A stretch of 64,000 nucleotides of DNA from Halosimplex salinum (lineage in GTDB: Archaea; Halobacteriota; Halobacteria; Halobacteriales; Haloarculaceae): NCBI RefSeq assembly GCF_003730195.1, contig NZ_QWGG01000007.1, positions 1 through 64,000 on the forward strand. The letters are read 5' to 3'. The notes under the pieces are model-generated. The model saw only the letters and a list, made by a program, of their open reading frames with translations. It was not told the origin of the DNA and did not search any database. Position 1 is the stretch's first letter, and every line of letters starts with the position of its first letter. This document shows, one piece after another, positions 23,552 through 35,789 of this stretch. Both the position numbers and the translations under genes were made by a program.

Positions 23552-23593
23552 ACCTGAACTGCCGCAAACCATGTCCTCCGGTTCGTGATCTCA

Positions 23594-24520
23594 ATGGTTC
23601 TGAACAGTGACTCGCCGGTCTCGTTCGACGAGGCCGACACACGAGATGCCGAGATGCACAGTGCGATCGACGAGTGGATCGACGACCTCGTCACGGCTGT
23701 CGACGAAGCACAGTCGAGCGATGAGTTTCAAGAGTGGCTCGATGTCCAGAGTCGCTTCCACGATTACTCTTATCGAAACACACTGTTGATCAAACGGCAG
23801 TGTCCCGAGGCGACGAAGGTCGCCGGCTACCGGACGTGGCAGGAGGAGTTCGACAGACACGTGAAGGAAGGCGAGTCGGCCATCTGGATCTGGGCACCGA
23901 TCATCACGACGCGCTGTCCCGAGTGCGAAAACGCGCCGAGCTACCACGAGCAGATCGGGTGTGAGTACGACGAGACGACGCCCGAGGAGTGGTCAGAGGG
24001 GCTGGTCGGGTTCAAGCCAGCGCCGGTATTCGACGTCTCTCAGACGGAGGGTGAGCCGTTGCCTGAACTGGACACGGCAGCGAAGGGTGACGCCGGCGAC
24101 CTCGTTGGCCAGCTATTCGATATTGCAGACGAGGTCGGGGTCTTAGTGCGCGTTGTGCCTGACGAGATATGGGGGCACGGTAACGCTGACGGCGTCTGTG
24201 AGTGGCCTGATGGTCGGGACGGGCAGCCAGTTGTCGAGATCCGGGACCGACCCGAGCGGGCTGCGGTCGCTGGGACACTTATCCACGAGTACGCTCACGC
24301 GTGTCTGCATTCCGGTGATCTCGACAGGACTGAACGGGCGAAGCGCGAGATTGAGGCTGAAGCGGTCGCGTACATCGTCGGTCGGTACTGCGGGCTCGAC
24401 ATGAGCGGATCGGCGTTCTACCTTGCCGCGTGGGAGCCGGACGATGCCGACATCGTCCGCGACCGGCTGCAGCGGATCAGCCAGACTGCAACGGAGTTCG
24501 TCGAGTTGCTGGATAGGTGA
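23594..24520 (+). CDS. ArdC-like antirestriction protein with ImmA/IrrE metallopeptidase domain
   Basis: About 308 residues from the ATG at 23594; an in-frame GTG lies 9 nt upstream. The N-terminal part (RFHDYSYRNTLLI, VAGYRTWQEEFDRHVKEGESAIWI) matches the ssDNA-binding ArdC domain. A Cys/His insertion (CPECENAPSYHEQIGC) probably binds zinc. The C-terminal part has HEYAHACLH with a downstream EAEAVAYIV, the zincin motif. ArdC proteins protect incoming conjugative DNA from host nucleases, so its place beside a DNA-modification island and upstream of a conjugation region is fitting. The gene is preceded by shared leader copy 2. Confidence 0.83.
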   Translation: MVLNSDSPVSFDEADTRDAEMHSAIDEWIDDLVTAVDEAQSSDEFQEWLDVQSRFHDYSYRNTLLIKRQCPEATKVAGYRTWQEEFDRHVKEGESAIWIWAPIITTRCPECENAPSYHEQIGCEYDETTPEEWSEGLVGFKPAPVFDVSQTEGEPLPELDTAAKGDAGDLVGQLFDIADEVGVLVRVVPDEIWGHGNADGVCEWPDGRDGQPVVEIRDRPERAAVAGTLIHEYAHACLHSGDLDRTERAKREIEAEAVAYIVGRYCGLDMSGSAFYLAAWEPDDADIVRDRLQRISQTATEFVELLDR

Positions 24521-26995
24521 TCGATGCGCTCGGTGACGAACGTCTCGAAGGCGTCGAGATCGTCTTCGAGGAAGTACCCCGTCGGCTCGGTCAGGTCGCC
24601 GAAGATCTTCTCGACACCACTGGTGACGTACTTGTACGAACCGACCTCCGCTTCGGCGAGCGTGGCGAACCCCTCCCGAATAGCGGCCCGTTGGTCGGGA
24701 TCGACGTCTTCTCGCGGCAACTCGTGGGTCTGGAAGAACTCCCGATACGCATCGTAGCCCAGTGTGTCGAGTACCTTGCAGCGGGCGTTCGAATCAGCAT
24801 AGTCGGTTAGCTGGTCGAACATGTCCCGCTCGGCGACGAACTCTCCGAACGAACACGGGACGTAGGTGATCGTCGTCACGAGTTCGTCGAGGTCCGGATC
24901 GGCGCCTTTCACCATCGCGTCGACAGCACCGAGGAGGTGAACGAACCGGAGTTCGAGCCGTCCGTCCGGTCACTCCGCGCGGTGCTGGGCGATGTAGGCT
25001 TTCGCCTGGAAATCCGGCGTATCGTGGACCGGGTCGAGCGCCGCTTTCTGTTGGACAGTACTGGCGTCGCGGATGGGGCCGGACTTGTAATCGACGAGTG
25101 TCCGCTCGTCCTGCAGAACGTCGACGACGCCGTGGAGGCCGATATTAGTCGCGGTGAACCACCGCTCGCAGTGGTGTGCCTTCAGTGAGACACCGAGCGC
25201 GTCAGCGCGATCGTTGTCGTGGGCGGGGTCGTCGTACGTGGTGAACGCCTCGGCCTTGACTGTCGGTCGGTTCGCGTCGAGATACGCGATGACGACGTCG
25301 AGGCGGGTCCTAAGCGGCCGGAGGCGCAGTTCGGTGACGAACGGGGCCAGTCGGTCACACATCGCGTCGAGAACCGTCTCGCGCTGTTCGTGGACGATTT
25401 CGGGGTCGTTCACGTACAACTCGGCGGCAGCGTGTAGTACCTGCCCGCGTTCCATCGCGGGGTTCGTCGGTGACTCCAGCACCTCGTCGAAGTAGTACTC
25501 CCGGGGGGCGTTGACTAGCTGCTTCAGCATCGACTGGCTGATGCTCTCGATGGGTTCGGCGCCGAGACTGTCGGTCGGTCCCTCGAACCCCGCTGTGTTT
25601 TGCTCCGCTCGATACCCCGAATGTGTCGTCACGTCCGGTAGGTCGTCGAGGCCGTCGAGCGCGCGGTCGTCGAGGACCTCTCGGAGATACGGGCAAGGGG
25701 TCACTTCGTCACCAGCCATCGAGGTCTGGGCGAGTACATATCGTTGCTCACCATTCTGCATTAGCAACTGGAAGCGACAGAGGTCGCGTTCGGCGAACGA
25801 CTCGACGTCGACCCACGGATACTCCGGGGGTGTTCGCGCCCATCCGTCGCCGAGGCCGAGATAGAAGACGAGTTCCCGGTCGACCCTGCGTCGACCAGCA
25901 GGACGCCCTCGCCCTCTCGGTCGACCGGCACCTCGAACGACCGGAGGTAGTAGACGATGTCGTTCACTCGCCGTTCGGAGACCTCGCTCTCGAGTCGGCC
26001 GAGTGACTGGAGTTCCGTCCGCAGTGTTTCGAGGCATCCCTCGACGAGTGGCTCGAAGGCGCCGATCGCGTCGGCGAACGTCCCGGTTCGGACGGCAGTC
26101 TGGAACGATTCGATCTACGTCCAGATGCCGTCATCGTCGTCGACGTCGGTGACGGAGAGTCAGTGTTCGTCGCGGTCTCCGGAGAGTGAGATCCCAGCCG
26201 TGACCAGTAGCGGCCGGATATCGCCAATTGTCAGTCCCTCACCGGCGAAGGTCGTCTGGAGCAGTCGACAGAACAGTCGGATCTCGTCGTCGTCGACGAA
26301 TCCCGGCCCACCCTGATAAAGGATCTCTGCGGCCTCGAGTTCGGCTTCGAGAGCGAACTGTAGATCGCCTCCTCGTCGAGTACGATCCCGACCTGATCGG
26401 CGGTTTCGGCGGAGACGTGGTCAAGGATCGCCTCGACGATCGCCGTCGCCGAGGGATACAGGTGGAAGTCGGGAAGTTCCGCGGTTCCATCGGTGAACGG
26501 CTCGAGTGAGTGGTACTCGTCGGGTTCCAGGAGCAAGCGCCGGTCGAGTGCACTCAGCGACTGGTCGTCGATCACGGCGATATCCTGTCCCGGAGAGAGC
26601 GTCGTCTCGTCGAGCGCGCGGTAGCTACTCGGCGCCGACTCGAGGAGCGAAACGGCGGCCCGGATCGGTGGCGTATCGAACTTCGGGGAGTTGCAGATCG
26701 CGTCGTACTCGCCCGTTCGGTCCCAGCAGTCGAGGGCCAGTTCCAGCGCTCGCGTCGCGGCCTTCCACGAGAGAGCCGTGTCGGAGACGAATCTCGCGAA
26801 GAGGTCAAGACGGTCGTCAGGTGCCAGTTCACCGCTGGCCTGACTCCGCGGTGTTGCGGCCATCCGACCGATTCTGGATTCGGTCGCCCGTCGGTCGAGA
26901 GCGAGCGTCAGCGGCGCTTCAGACGAGATCGCGATATCGGCATCGCCTACAGCCGTAGCGAGTTCGGCGATGGACTTCGCGTTCGCAAGTAACAC
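24521..26995 (-). pseudogene. Decayed AddB-like / PD-(D/E)XK nuclease gene
   Basis: Read from 26995 down, this is one haloarchaeal AddB-like nuclease of roughly 820 residues broken into pieces. The N-terminal part (26995 to about 26360) is intact. A frameshift near 26360 moves to the frame continuing LEAELEAAEILYQGGPGFVD. Stops follow at 26160-26162 (TGA) and 26115-26117 (TAG), a second frameshift near 25880, then the nuclease part with GVVDVL...TLVDYKSG and DFQAKAYIAQHRAE, a TGA at 24970-24972, and an open C-terminal piece that runs into the 3' end of the ArdC-like gene. All three stops stand where Trp would fit. It is not expressed as a full protein. Confidence 0.85.
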
Positions 26996-27280: not shown

Positions 27281-28408
27281 TCATTCCCAGTTGTTCATGT
27301 TCACACTGGGTGAGACGGATTCGAGAGCGTCCATCAGGTGGTTCTGAGAGATCACCGTCTCTTCGTTCATCGCTTTCCGTGCAGCTTCGACAGTGACGGC
27401 TTCGAGGTCGGCACAGCTATACTGGGGCGTGTGTCGGGCGAGTTCGCGGAAGTCGATGTCGCTGGCCGCGACGGGACGCTCTCTGAGGTGGACTCGAAGC
27501 ACTTCCTGACGACAGGTAGCGTCTGGCATGTCGATTTCGAACTTGTGGCCGAAGCGGCCAGGCCGGGTCGCGGCATCATCCATATCACCGTTCATATTCG
27601 TCGTTCCGACGATCAGCACGTCCTCGTCGCTTAGCGACGGCATGTCGCCCAGGAACTGAGTGATCAGCTGTCGCATCTCGGCAGAATCGGACGCACTCGT
27701 CCGATCGTAGACCAGCGCGTCCACTTCGTCGATTACGATTAGGCAGGGCTGGTGCTCCACTGCCTGTTGGAAGAGTTGCTGGAGGTTCTGTTCTGATTCC
27801 CCAGCGAGACTCCCGCGAACGTCTGCCAGCGAGATATCGAGGAAATCACGCCCTAGTTCACCAGCAAGAGCCTTGGCCAGCGTAGTCTTCCCGGTGCCGG
27901 GTGGCCCGGTAAAGACGACTCCGTTCGGGACAGGAATCCCGTACTCTCTGTGCTTCTCCTTGTTTTCGACCGGAGCGATGATCAACTCCTTGAGTCGGTC
28001 GATGACCGCTTCGCGGCCACCGAGTTCAGAGAAGTCTAGCTCTGGGGTCTCCCAGTCGAACAGATCTGTGTCGTCGTCTTCTTCGTTTATGGCCTGCGTA
28101 GTGGGCTGCGGTTCCGGTTCAGACGACTGGTCGGTCAGCTCCGATGCCTCCACCACGCGTTTTTCCTCGGCCGCTTTCCGCCAGTTTGCGGCCTTCGAGC
28201 GGTATTTGTCCTCGAGCGGCGGAAACGATTCGGCGTCTGCGAGTGCACGATAGCACTTCTCGAGTTCCTCGAGATATCTGGCGAGCTCCGTCTGGTCCGG
28301 CGAGTCAGAGGTAGCGACTCGTGACGCCTCAGACTTTAGCTCCGCGATCTGGTGCTTGAGCTCCTGTTTCGAGGCCTGTTTGCGAGATTCGCTGTTGAGT
28401 CCGAACAT
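27281..28408 (-). CDS. AAA ATPase, Vps4/Cdc48-like single-ring type
   Basis: A 375-residue protein. An N-terminal helical region of ~85 residues (two or three charged helices) resembles in size the MIT domain of Vps4. An acidic linker (~90-125) leads to one AAA module: Walker A GPPGTGKT at 168-175, Walker B LIVIDEVDAL near 223-232, and arginine fingers in ATRPGRFGH. Only one AAA module is present, unlike Cdc48. It is the last gene of a set with a coiled-coil protein (4-bp gap) and a small membrane protein. I infer a disassembly ATPase for the coiled-coil protein. Confidence 0.83.
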   Translation of the reverse strand: MFGLNSESRKQASKQELKHQIAELKSEASRVATSDSPDQTELARYLEELEKCYRALADAESFPPLEDKYRSKAANWRKAAEEKRVVEASELTDQSSEPEPQPTTQAINEEDDDTDLFDWETPELDFSELGGREAVIDRLKELIIAPVENKEKHREYGIPVPNGVVFTGPPGTGKTTLAKALAGELGRDFLDISLADVRGSLAGESEQNLQQLFQQAVEHQPCLIVIDEVDALVYDRTSASDSAEMRQLITQFLGDMPSLSDEDVLIVGTTNMNGDMDDAATRPGRFGHKFEIDMPDATCRQEVLRVHLRERPVAASDIDFRELARHTPQYSCADLEAVTVEAARKAMNEETVISQNHLMDALESVSPSVNMNNWE

Positions 28409-28412
28409 TGAT

Positions 28413-29123
28413 CTACCAGTTCAGTTCGACTTCATCGTCTTCTTCTTCGGCCGCCGCCTCTTCGGTGAGGTCGCCGTTCAACTCCGAGTTGAGGAAGCTG
28501 TCCACGTCGTTTTCGAGGCCCACTTCCTCAGCAGAGATGTCCTCCTGTTCCATCTGCCGGAGTGCCTCTTCTTCGCGGCCGACTTTGTCGTCGAGACTGA
28601 GCTCGTCGAGAGTGTTCTCGAGGGCTTTGTCGGCGTGCTGGCGCTCCAGGTTCTCGGTCTCCTCGGGATTCTCGACCAGCGCTTCAGTGACGTTCTCCGC
28701 GGTCTGATCGAGGTCGACACGGGCGTTCTCGTCCGCCGAGACTGCGTTCGTCTCGTAGGCAGTCACCTCGTCGAGCTTGCGCTCGAACTTCTCCAGGTGG
28801 GCGACGAACAGCTTGACGTGTTTGGTCGCCCGCTTGCGGAGCCGCCGTGCCTTGGCGAGGTGACGCTTGCGCGTCAGGCTAGAGGAGTTCTCTGCGTCCT
28901 CCAGTGCATCCTTTCGGATCTCGTTGTAGTTCTCGAACTTTTGTTCGGCTTCGGCCATCTTGTTCTCGTGGTAGTCGAGGTCGGCCTCGTAGTCTGCGAC
29001 GGTGTATTCGGTGTCGAACACCTTTTCACCCTGTTTTTCTGCGACCTCTTTCATCTCGTTGAGCACTTTGACTCCGAAAGTCTCCTTTGCCCAGTCGAGG
29101 ACTGGTTCTCTGAAACTAACCAT
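28413..29123 (-). CDS. Charged coiled-coil protein, possible ESCRT-III/PspA-like
   Basis: A 236-residue helical protein. Residues ~40-120 form a long hairpin-like coiled coil with a basic second helix (RKRHLAKARRLRKRATKHVK). The C-terminal half is acidic, and the protein ends in a strongly acidic tail with hydrophobic last residues (EEDDEVELNW). A basic helical core with an acidic C-terminal tail and a short terminal motif is how ESCRT-III subunits present themselves to Vps4 MIT domains. The gene lies between a membrane protein and a Vps4-like ATPase. No family motif is certain; the ESCRT-like reading is inference from layout. Confidence 0.75.
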   Translation of the reverse strand: MVSFREPVLDWAKETFGVKVLNEMKEVAEKQGEKVFDTEYTVADYEADLDYHENKMAEAEQKFENYNEIRKDALEDAENSSSLTRKRHLAKARRLRKRATKHVKLFVAHLEKFERKLDEVTAYETNAVSADENARVDLDQTAENVTEALVENPEETENLERQHADKALENTLDELSLDDKVGREEEALRQMEQEDISAEEVGLENDVDSFLNSELNGDLTEEAAAEEEDDEVELNW

Positions 29124-29125
29124 CG

Positions 29126-29458
29126 TTATCGTTCCTCCGTGTAGTCTGCTTTCGGTTCCGTTTTCGTCGTCCGATCATCGTGTTTCAGGTCCGGTTTCGT
29201 GAGGACGACCATCGTGAAGACACCGACTAGACTCCCGATCACCGCAACGACAGCGACCAGCTGCATCTCGTCGGTCGTCATCTCGAACAGCGCTTCACCG
29301 GCCATCCATTCCGCCACCGGGACGATGGTGACCAGTGCGACGCCGACCAGCCATCCGATCGCCCAGCTGCGTTCGATCGCTTTGTACACCACGAGGGTGC
29401 TGGCGAGACCGATGCCAACCTGCCCCGCGAATATCAGTGCGAGCAGTCCTTCGTTCAT
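29126..29458 (-). CDS. Small membrane protein, three helices
   Basis: About 110 residues from the ATG at 29458; an in-frame GTG lies 9 nt upstream. Three hydrophobic segments (about residues 5-22, 30-50, 65-86) precede a hydrophilic, charged C-terminal tail facing probably the cytoplasm. It is the first gene of the set with the coiled-coil protein (2-bp gap) and the AAA ATPase, and it could anchor that system to the membrane. No family recognised. Confidence 0.72.
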   Translation of the reverse strand: MNEGLLALIFAGQVGIGLASTLVVYKAIERSWAIGWLVGVALVTIVPVAEWMAGEALFEMTTDEMQLVAVVAVIGSLVGVFTMVVLTKPDLKHDDRTTKTEPKADYTEER

Positions 29459-29510
29459 TGCGACCACAGACTGGACGACGAGAGCGCCCGTATTAGGGGT
29501 CGGAACTCTG

Positions 29511-30181: not shown

Positions 30182-30823
30182 TTAGTTCGACAGTCCGATA
30201 TCAGGCTCTTCGAACGTACCGTCGCCACCTCCGAACCGCGGTCCTGGGGTGGTCCCACCGGTCCCAGGTACCTGATCCGGTGATTTGAATGGGAGGTGGT
30301 CCATTCGGAACAGCACGGCGACCTTCGGGTCCGATTTCAGCCACTCCGACCAGGTCATGAAGAAGCGTTGTTCACCCTCAGTCATAGCAGCTTGTTCAGG
30401 CACTACTTGTTCGGTCGTGTCTTGAGCCGATTCGATGTCGGCCACTGGCGAAAAGAATCGGTCAGGAATTTGCAGACGGCCATCCTGCCGGAGTTTGTAT
30501 CTCTTCGCGAATTTGAAATCACCGTCGGTATCGTCAGTTTCGTACACCCCACCGTCACTGGCAATATCTGTGACCCGATTCTCGTTGTTCGTCAGGGCCT
30601 CGTTCCCGAGCAGTATCCAACCGTTTTCCCGCTCGTACGACCAATAACCGTAGTGTTCGGTAGAATCCCCGAGTTTGTTTTCCTGAAGGATTCCCGCGTC
30701 GATGAGTTCCTTGGGGATGGAAATCATTCCACCGCCGTCGTTGATTCGAACTTCGTTCACGCCCAGTGGGATCCAGTGGGGTTCGTCTGGTCTGCTCGGG
30801 TCGCTCAGCGACATGTCGTCCAC
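30182..30823 (-). CDS. Hypothetical protein with two AbrB-like strands
   Basis: A 213-residue protein. GGGMISIPKELIDAGIL near residues 29-46 and DGRLQIPDRFF near 113-124 both look like SpoVT/AbrB swapped-hairpin elements, which suggests an intramolecular AbrB pair. The C-terminal ~40 residues are Gly/Pro-rich and probably disordered. It converges with the gene at 29575 across an 11-bp gap. Function unknown; a DNA-binding or scaffold role is a guess. Confidence 0.65.
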   Translation of the reverse strand: MDDMSLSDPSRPDEPHWIPLGVNEVRINDGGGMISIPKELIDAGILQENKLGDSTEHYGYWSYERENGWILLGNEALTNNENRVTDIASDGGVYETDDTDGDFKFAKRYKLRQDGRLQIPDRFFSPVADIESAQDTTEQVVPEQAAMTEGEQRFFMTWSEWLKSDPKVAVLFRMDHLPFKSPDQVPGTGGTTPGPRFGGGDGTFEEPDIGLSN

Positions 30824-33806: not shown

Positions 33807-35789
33807 ATGGCTGGGCTAGGATCGGTCCTGGAGAAGACATCTTCACGTCCATTACGACGGCTCCTCCGTATTTTCGATCCACGGTCTGGATTTACCTATC
33901 AGCAATCAGCAATCGAAGGGAGAATGAACCGACGCGCTATCGAACTGCTCGATCAACCCAACATCGAAGAGCGTGCCCGACAAGTAGGCTACCAGCCCAC
34001 GGAAACCGCTTGCGAGTATCAGCACAGGTGGCTGCTGGTCACGTTGCGCTTCGTGACCGAACAGGCCGATGGGTCGGGTACCGCCCTCTTCAGGGAAGAA
34101 ATCGAGGCACCGGGTATATTCTCTGCAGCCCTCACTGTCGCGTTCCTTTCCACGTTCATCTGGGTGTACCTTCCGGACCCGTTCGGTTTGCTGCTCCTCG
34201 GAACGGCCGTCCTCGTTTTTGCAGCGCTGTTGACAGGGTTCCTCTTCGTCCCTAGCCCACTTGCTCGGTACGTCGACGAGTATCACACGGAGATGTCCGA
34301 CGACGATACGGGGGGTGAGTCAGTCGGGATAAATTTGCCAGCGATAGCCGAACAACCGCCACCGGACGCAGTATCCGAGTATTCGGTCTTGGACCCACAG
34401 TCGTATCGATGTTCGTGTATTGGACCGTCCATGACGGCGCTCCTTGGCGGACTGGTGGCCTCTGGGCCAGTTTTCCTCGCTGGAATGCCGCTACTCTTCA
34501 GTACGATCCGCGACAGCATCTACGTCGACATCCAAATGTTTCGAACCTGGTTCGTGGTGCCGCTACTCGGTGCATCCTGGATGCTGGGGTTCTGGGTAGT
34601 CGGGTGTCTGCTCGGTGCGTTCATCTACGCGTTCGAGGCGGACGAAACGCAGATCAAGATATTCCCGTTCGACCTCGTTACCCGAGTAAGCGGTCCCACC
34701 CCGGAACTCACCGGGGGATACTTTCTTCTACTTGGTATCGCTGGGGTCCCACTGATCGCGCTTTCGAATTCGTACTTTCTGCTCCCGGCGATCTATCGCT
34801 TCTCTCCGGCCAGACAGTGGATCTACTTCCTCTTTCCGCCGACGGTGATGGCCGCTTCCCTGCCTGTCTTCATCTACTGGTGGGTAGTCCAGAACCGTGA
34901 GTACGTCTCTCGACGGACTATCGAGCGCCTCAGTAATCTCTCCTCCATCAGGGGACGAATCGCGGTGGCCTGTGTGGGAACAGTCTTTTCGTACGCCGTC
35001 GCTCTCTCACTGGTGGGCGTTGTCCGAAAATACTGGAGTTACTTGGGTGGTCCGCTCCTCAACCAAAATCCCCTCCCGGTCCTCGAGAAACCAGTGTTAC
35101 TCGTCATCATACTCGCGAGTATGTCCCCCGCCGTGTATCTCCTTCTGGGAGTGACATATCAGGTCTGTTCGCACTTCGTTTTGGTGGGGCGCGCCTTCGT
35201 CGAATCCACCATCGTCGGGGAATCTCCCCATCTGAATCAACCCGTCAGGCTGATCCCCGAGGCTGCACCCCGTGCATTCACACTAGCTCTCGGTCCGTGG
35301 CAGTATATTTTCGTGACGACGGGACTCCGCAAGCAACTCTCCTCACGTCAGGAGTTTACCGCAATTATCGCCCACGAAGAGGGACATCTGGATACAGACG
35401 AGAGTCTGTTGAGTGACGCGCAATTGGGAACGCTTCTCCCTGTGCTGGGCATGTTCACTCTAACTGGAAAGAGTGTACTCTACGCTTTGGCCAACTATCG
35501 AGACCGGGAAACTGCAGCCGACGATTACGCCGCCTCACGGGTCGGTGCAGAACCGTTGATCGACGCCCTCGACCAGTTGCGGAGCACAGACGAAGGATCG
35601 CCCGGTGCGGCACTCGTTTCAGTCCCGGCGGTCCAGACACCGGGTACACTCGCTCGCCCTACAAACACACTGCAGGCACTCGAGCGGTACTTCGGGTTGC
35701 TCTTCGGGAGCTTTGCACTCACCAGAGCACATCCAAGTATCGACGACCGCAAGCGCCGGCTCCGGGACGAATCTCGAGACGACGACTAA
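33807..35789 (+). CDS. M48-type membrane metallopeptidase
   Basis: A 660-residue membrane protein with about eight hydrophobic segments spread over residues 110-470. The zinc motif AIIAHEEGHLD (HEEGH) lies near residue 520, and a downstream RETAADDYAA supplies the third ligand region, as in HtpX/Ste24 M48 peptidases. The catalytic domain follows the membrane part. Two similar proteins follow at 39295 and 41025. Role in the cluster unknown; membrane protein quality control is the family norm. Confidence 0.82.
   Translation: MAGLGSVLEKTSSRPLRRLLRIFDPRSGFTYQQSAIEGRMNRRAIELLDQPNIEERARQVGYQPTETACEYQHRWLLVTLRFVTEQADGSGTALFREEIEAPGIFSAALTVAFLSTFIWVYLPDPFGLLLLGTAVLVFAALLTGFLFVPSPLARYVDEYHTEMSDDDTGGESVGINLPAIAEQPPPDAVSEYSVLDPQSYRCSCIGPSMTALLGGLVASGPVFLAGMPLLFSTIRDSIYVDIQMFRTWFVVPLLGASWMLGFWVVGCLLGAFIYAFEADETQIKIFPFDLVTRVSGPTPELTGGYFLLLGIAGVPLIALSNSYFLLPAIYRFSPARQWIYFLFPPTVMAASLPVFIYWWVVQNREYVSRRTIERLSNLSSIRGRIAVACVGTVFSYAVALSLVGVVRKYWSYLGGPLLNQNPLPVLEKPVLLVIILASMSPAVYLLLGVTYQVCSHFVLVGRAFVESTIVGESPHLNQPVRLIPEAAPRAFTLALGPWQYIFVTTGLRKQLSSRQEFTAIIAHEEGHLDTDESLLSDAQLGTLLPVLGMFTLTGKSVLYALANYRDRETAADDYAASRVGAEPLIDALDQLRSTDEGSPGAALVSVPAVQTPGTLARPTNTLQALERYFGLLFGSFALTRAHPSIDDRKRRLRDESRDDD

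Follow-up and report, generated by a model that had tools for sequence, protein, structure and literature searches.

A probable compact ESCRT-type operon with a conserved small membrane protein in Halosimplex salinum

Three adjoining genes in a 64,000-nucleotide stretch of Halosimplex salinum DNA, which we call the window, probably form one operon for compact membrane remodelling of the ESCRT type. In this set, a small protein with three transmembrane segments (the 3-TM protein) would act as recruiter, a coiled-coil protein as ESCRT-III-like polymer and a Vps4-like AAA ATPase as extractor. The reading starts from features that we established directly: the genes keep their order and are conserved, the folds are those predicted by modelling, the motifs of the ATPase are intact, and the membrane protein is specifically associated with the coil.

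The initial annotation treated a remodelling system of this kind as new to haloarchaea. This part has to be withdrawn, as the excerpted texts of two papers already document such systems in Halobacteriales: the Main, Halo_FHA and Halo_adaptin systems are described by Makarova et al. 2024 (PMC10936438), and a Halomicrobium ESCRT-III-like protein served as query in Liu et al. 2021 (PMC8281802). ESCRT in haloarchaea is known, and the window set is a compact version of it that lacks accessory genes and is plasmid-borne in Haloplanus. What is new is the stripped, partly plasmid-borne three-gene form together with its conserved small membrane protein, the latter being the main new element.

Results

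Inspection of the open reading frames in the Halosimplex salinum window places the three genes head to tail on the minus strand, with the 3-TM protein first, followed by the coil and then the AAA ATPase. The gaps between them, expected to be of 2-4 bp, measure 2 bp and 4 bp. The first gene (29126..29458, minus strand) encodes P0003, a protein of 110 aa from its ATG, or of 113 aa from an alternative in-frame GTG at 29467. Hydropathy assigns it three TM segments, as foreseen for a three-helix membrane protein, and it belongs to a conserved family located upstream of haloarchaeal ESCRT-III-like genes. The second gene (28413..29123, minus strand) encodes the 236-aa coiled-coil protein P0002, which we call ESCRT-III-like from its ORF, profiles and model, while the third (27281..28408, minus strand) encodes the 375-aa Vps4-like AAA ATPase P0001, assigned by ORF, Pfam and profiles.

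P0001, P0002 and P0003 are real genes under purifying selection. All three are found, with their order kept, on plasmid unnamed2 of Haloplanus sp. GDY1, where identity to the window set amounts to 63% for the AAA, 64% for the coil and 47% for the membrane protein. The corresponding pN/pS values are 0.33, 0.31 and 0.56, with synonymous sites near saturation.

The AAA ATPase matches the single-ring enzyme with an N-terminal domain of MIT size that had been read from the sequence: it contains one AAA cassette (Pfam AAA, E 5.8e-33; lid, E 4e-9) preceded by a three-helix domain of about 90 residues. Its ATPase motifs are intact, comprising the Walker A motif GPPGTGKT (residues 168-175; 27884..27907, minus strand), Walker B and the conserved second region of homology. 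The model of residues 1-103, built from a two-sequence alignment, is a bundle of three helices whose mean pLDDT is 82 and whose core exceeds 90. The comparison with MIT domains proposed in the initial annotation turned out in its favour, predicted structure and profiles together pointing to an MIT-like bundle at residues 4-93 (28130..28399, minus strand). VIA aligns the model with the MIT domain of yeast Vps4 (4niq) at Z 10.3 and rmsd 1.6 over 82 residues, and with that of an archaeal Vps4 (2w2u) at Z 9.9 and rmsd 2.0 over 75 residues. The MIT domains are matched over their full length, and 10 of the 50 VIA rows are MIT by title; 14-3-3 proteins outrank them, but at rmsd 3-7. As modelled, the fold of the N-terminal domain is MIT-like.

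Sequence comparisons of this domain reach MIT by steps. The Pfam MIT profile occurs below threshold in the N-domains of five of the eight relatives' AAA proteins scanned (best E 3.5e-4), and for P0001 itself MIT is absent among the best 25 of 47 Pfam families. Against the profile of the relatives' N-domains, the window N-domain scores a probability of 78.6 (reversed, 0.4); the relatives' profile in turn scores 69 (reversed, 9) against the N-domain of the Methanosarcina-type Vps4. Compared directly, the N-domain of the window pair and that of the Methanosarcina type gave no match (probability 0.18). "Methanosarcina-type" is our label for six genomes of one family (f19), assigned from the look of their genes. 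The full AAA profile matches Methanosarcina-type ATPases that adjoin Snf7-like genes over nearly the whole length, with E values from 1e-77 to 5e-86.

Judged by sequence, the clearest departure of P0001 from canonical Vps4 is pore loop 1, and it is for this reason that we call the protein Vps4-like and not a Vps4. The loop reads SLAGE in P0001, with a Leu, and SSLVGE in many relatives; elsewhere it is KWVG in the Methanosarcina type and KWYG at locus L150. The aromatic pore-loop 1 residue of canonical Vps4 (KW.G type) is absent from P0001, which also misses the NCBIfam cut-off for CdvC (113 bits vs 650). Textbook Vps4 motifs (PW.LD.AIRRRF, and KWYG in L150) were observed in AAA proteins that stand beside coils of the P0002 family, at loci L148, L149, L150 and L154.

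We also built an AAA tree. Its root was set with nine domains from further AAA proteins of the host, labelled Cdc48/PAN-type by length and domain count (group support 98/96). The MIT-type AAAs fall on one side of the root, together with one double-AAA protein that has no MIT-like N-terminus. The tree did not settle (bootstrap correlation 0.975) and contains long branches, and the backing that it gives to a grouping of MIT-type AAAs is weak. The closest paralogue of P0001 (38-39%) is an 850-residue double-AAA protein encoded in the host genome outside the window (C26, 219337-221889, plus strand). The tree places it alongside the AAAs of haloarchaeal ESCRT; by eye it has no MIT-like N-terminus, and no coil adjoins it.

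Some features of the AAA ATPase would suit a different function, that of a membrane-protein quality-control or extraction module in which the AAA would unfold membrane clients or pull them out, with the coil serving as adaptor and the 3-TM protein as receptor, and in which no membrane is bent. The Leu pore loop of P0001 and its second region of homology, which has the form RPGRF and is not of the PW..RRRF Vps4 type, resemble those of Cdc48-type unfoldases. The best solved-structure sequence matches of P0001 are Cdc48/VCP, an M48 peptidase is encoded about 4 kb from the window set, and another lies near the related set at L151. On the other hand, the N-domain of the AAA is MIT-like in its predicted fold, the model of the coil is ESCRT-III-like and the coil family is linked to ESCRT-type clusters, so that we regard an extraction module as unlikely.

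The coiled-coil protein carries the basic core and the acidic tail ascribed to it in the initial annotation, a charge layout characteristic of the ESCRT-III superfamily. Its residues 84-104, just past the turn of the predicted hairpin (28812..28874, minus strand), have a net charge of +11; in the 40 acidic window ORFs that we examined, no other 21-residue segment is as basic. The C-terminal 40 residues (197-236; 28416..28535, minus strand) count to a net -16 and end in VELNW. No MIM1 or MIM2 motif was recognised in this tail by eye, without a motif model.

AF2 predicts helices in P0002 at residues 5-31, 42-78, 82-151, 153-176, 178-195 and 200-216. The model was obtained from a two-sequence alignment and has a mean pLDDT of 65; the predicted hairpin (residues 42-151, formed by helices 42-78 and 82-151; 28671..29000, minus strand) is better defined, with pLDDT 77-93 at residues 41-120. 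The modelled protein has the hairpin and smaller helices of ESCRT-III and PspA, so that the hairpin core for which it had been proposed to check is indeed predicted, along with shorter helices. A Foldseek search of the PDB with this model returned ESCRT-III or Vipp1 in 14 of the 20 best rows, with Vipp1 in the top row and all E values above 0.3. In VIA, every one of the first eight ranks is an ESCRT-III, aligned over 75-165 residues; the match to Shrub has Z 10.1 and rmsd 1.8 over 109 residues, and that to an Asgard ESCRT-IIIB has Z 9.9 and rmsd 28.4 over 165 residues, values of Z around 10 that are tied with those of unrelated hairpins such as seryl-tRNA synthetase.

Profile comparisons connect the coil with those of other haloarchaea. 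Window-type coils match haloarchaeal coils with a probability of 98.6 (E 7e-15; reversed control, 0.19), and the haloarchaeal coils match those beside AAAs with the PW..RRRF motif with a probability of 98.5. Against the Methanosarcina-type ESCRT-III, the coil profile scores weakly (E 0.011 over 196 columns at a probability of 1.75, with E 0.12 for the reversed control), without gain when more coils were added, so that the link between the two families is only suggestive. Snf7 (PF03357) gives no match to P0002, nor to the 24 coils among the best 25 of 57 matched families, the remaining families of that scan being single-member matches with E above about 0.06. The Snf7 profile itself stays below its cut-off in all 246 genomes of the phylum and in the Sulfolobus control, and its failure on the coil therefore says little. 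Overall, the sequence ties of the coil to canonical ESCRT-III are weak. A match to an unrelated known family would have spoken for another origin; the searches of Pfam, NCBIfam, PHROGs and PDB sequences returned no family for the coil.

The top Foldseek row, Vipp1, and the long N-terminal helix ahead of the hairpin in P0002 raise the question of whether the set is a PspA/Vipp1-type membrane-stress module that acquired an AAA partner, and not a derivative of Vps4 and ESCRT-III. We consider this origin quite improbable. PspA_IM30 (PF04012) is absent from the complete Pfam list of P0002 at E<=1, and for the 24 coils no PspA match is present among the best 25 of 57 matched families. The coil profile matches the PspA profile weakly (E 0.05-0.6), the AAA has a predicted MIT-like N-domain, and the host has two separate PspA genes above the cut-off (PF04012), located elsewhere. 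The assignment of the coil to PspA was rejected on this weak profile match and the separate host genes. The host genome further contains two full FtsZ matches above the cut-off. Since it has two FtsZ and two PspA, division and the PspA response are each served by dedicated proteins.

With P0002 as a single-sequence query, nothing was found in 58 other relatives, seven of the same genus included, and four true relatives were recovered from 391 genomes of the class (L014, L015, L016 and L018). The matches L017 and L020 were rejected, as by eye they fall on ordinary genes or their antisense, and L019 and L021-L023 were dropped for weak scores. The first coil profiles detected relatives in 30 of the 391 haloarchaeal genomes at E<=0.05, and the 24-sequence profile in 29 of them at E<=0.001, in 34 places. 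An AAA lies directly beside 21 of the 25 coils in the first set of loci, the exceptions being L067, L068, L072 and the second coil of L071, and adjoins the coil in five of the seven coil places of the second set. The coil of L068 is near-identical to that of L067; it is one of the 25 coils counted, but was omitted from alignment A3. L024 duplicates L014 and was omitted as well, and the coils of G100 and G272 stand outside the gene-context counts.

Two of the loci have unusual arrangements. The coil relative at L067 (5373-6581) is a 402-residue protein with a C-terminal extension and no adjoining AAA, and its gene is divergent to that of a large protein that by eye is tubulin/FtsZ-like. At L016 (2156-2413), an extra helical ORF of 85 residues lies between coil and AAA; it has no Pfam match and by eye resembles a free MIT-like domain.

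The small membrane protein accompanies the coil closely. A small TM protein is encoded immediately upstream of the coil in 17 of the 28 loci examined, one of which (L070) is unconfirmed by the family profile. BLASTP of P0003 against neighbourhood ORFs gave E 9e-33 in Haloplanus and E 2.6e-9 to 1e-6 in L150, L055, L154, L056 and L066, and five residues (E29, G54, E55, G79 and P89) are invariant in a 12-sequence alignment of the family. Searched against the 391 genomes at E<=0.01, the P0003 profile identified 22 places: 17 directly upstream of a coil, three elsewhere in coil-bearing genomes (G151, G031 and G100) and two weak ones in coil-free genomes (G148 and G293). At E<=0.001 it identified 20 genomes of the 391, and 19 of these 20 are among the 29 with a coil (hypergeometric p 4e-24, with kinship of genomes ignored). 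Because of this upstream position and co-occurrence in genomes, we take the P0003 family to be a specific component of the coil system. P0003 is a candidate membrane anchor, and by the positive-inside rule its conserved ME(R)R loop would lie on the cytoplasmic side.

Matches of P0003 to DUF3792 (E 0.007) and TIGR04086 (E 0.0015) were weak and were treated as chance. In three genomes of one genus (L175, L176 and L177), the small membrane protein stands apart from the coil-AAA locus. A literature search by title retrieved no publication on such an ESCRT anchor in haloarchaea. In the excerpted main text of PMC10936438, Halo_adaptin is the one system credited with a membrane protein, while Main has membrane-associated kinases and Meth_adaptin a TM linker; a P0003-like protein is not named there for the haloarchaeal ESCRT clusters.

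The relatives' clusters also contain accessory genes. Pfam detects PP2C phosphatase genes at L055 and L060 and a Ser/Thr kinase at L057, two kinds of gene that also belong to the haloarchaeal ESCRT clusters described in PMC10936438, and the clusters carry two conserved proteins that fit arCOG08177 and arCOG09748, as assigned by the paper's description. FHA, expected from the description in PMC10936438, was not found by Pfam in L055:7794-8528 or L148:7158-7814. Among window ORFs of at least 80 aa there is no homologue of the relatives' accessory neighbour proteins, and none of these genes was seen beside the Haloplanus plasmid set, by its annotation, or beside L074. Haloplanus sp. GDY1 (taken to be G260) has both forms: its plasmid carries the compact set (L014/L024), and its largest contig carries another set (L066) that includes the accessory proteins. 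This speaks for the compact form being a separate, mobile lineage. In H. salinum the set lies on a 241-kb contig with genes that by eye are housekeeping-like, and may be chromosomal.

Several neighbouring genes deserve mention. Three proteins encoded near the window set (23585-24520, 30182-30823 and 33807-35789), an ArdC-like protein, an AbrB-like protein (by eye) and an M48 peptidase, have homologues flanking the L151 set, which lies on a 179-kb contig, possibly reflecting shared cargo or function. The Haloplanus plasmid carries an annotated TOMM/YcaO peptide-modification cluster after its compact set (L024, 18026-21934). A PD-(D/E)XK nuclease with weak similarity to Cas4 is encoded near the set in the window (24970-26037).

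An anti-phage or plasmid-defence module with an IetA-like AAA ATPase, suggested by the match of IetA models to P0001 (E 5e-37) and by the patchy, partly plasmid distribution, is rejected as highly improbable: the match spans the general AAA region, a PADLOC scan of six window proteins gave no match to an IetS partner model, related sets occur together with kinase/phosphatase ESCRT clusters, and coil relatives are absent from phage records and viral contig collections, where one AAA match (L076) covers 34 residues.

Discussion

The layout envisaged in the initial annotation, an ESCRT-III/PspA-like coil with an MIT-bearing AAA and an anchor, is supported by the models, the profile links and the conserved gene order. 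In the ESCRT-type operon that we favour, the three genes would be transcribed together. The 3-TM protein would sit in the cytoplasmic membrane and recruit the coil, which, with its hairpin core and basic patch, could polymerise on the inner face of the membrane and bend or constrict it. Through its MIT-like domain the AAA ring would then hold the subunits of the polymer by their acidic tails and, by hydrolysing ATP, draw them out, so that the filament is remodelled or recycled, presumably with scission as the outcome.

As for the cellular role, the host encodes two FtsZ, and vesicle formation or membrane repair is therefore the most likely job of the set, rather than division. In the excerpted text of Makarova et al. 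(PMC10936438), ESCRT in FtsZ-bearing archaea is likewise argued to serve vesicle formation and sorting, and the excerpted text of a 2022 study (PMC8970359) reports no common Cdv system in Euryarchaeota. A bolder proposal, which we put forward tentatively and consider possible but less than probable, is that haloarchaeal ESCRT has in the 3-TM protein a membrane recruiter of its own, standing in functionally for CdvA or ESCRT-I/II, and that the set is a mobile, self-sufficient three-gene scission module carried on plasmids between FtsZ-dividing haloarchaea, perhaps budding vesicles.

As we read PMC10936438, what is known of archaeal ESCRT outside TACK and Asgard comes mainly from genomics. Haloarchaea are genetically accessible, and a three-gene version in them would offer a route to the smallest working ESCRT, and would also show how tethering proceeds without CdvA and what ESCRT does in cells that divide by FtsZ. 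The P0003 family is the part that deserves follow-up.

Among known systems, the window set resembles the Main and Halo_FHA ESCRT systems (PMC10936438), with which it shares an ESCRT-III-like coil directly upstream of an MIT-type AAA, both homologous to those in clusters bearing PP2C and Ser/Thr kinase genes. It differs from them in that the window locus has no FHA, arCOG09748 or arCOG08177 genes, as judged from the relatives' neighbours against window ORFs of at least 80 aa, and in that it has a 3-TM protein, which the excerpted main text of PMC10936438 does not name for those clusters. The PspA/Vipp1 family resembles P0002 in the predicted hairpin with an N-terminal helix, whereas P0002 has no PspA profile match and the host PspA genes are separate. 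With the Cdv system of TACK archaea, which the excerpted text of PMC10936438 gives as CdvA, ESCRT-III (CdvB) and Vps4 (CdvC), the set shares a minimal three-part layout; CdvA has a PRC-barrel N-terminal domain, whereas the first gene of the window set encodes an integral 3-TM protein, and the window host has FtsZ. Finally, the minimal ESCRT of Thermoplasmata (Vps4, ESCRT-III and arCOG07400, in the same excerpted text) is, like the window set, a three-gene set in a euryarchaeon, but its third component is a beta-barrel, while that of the window is a 3-TM protein.
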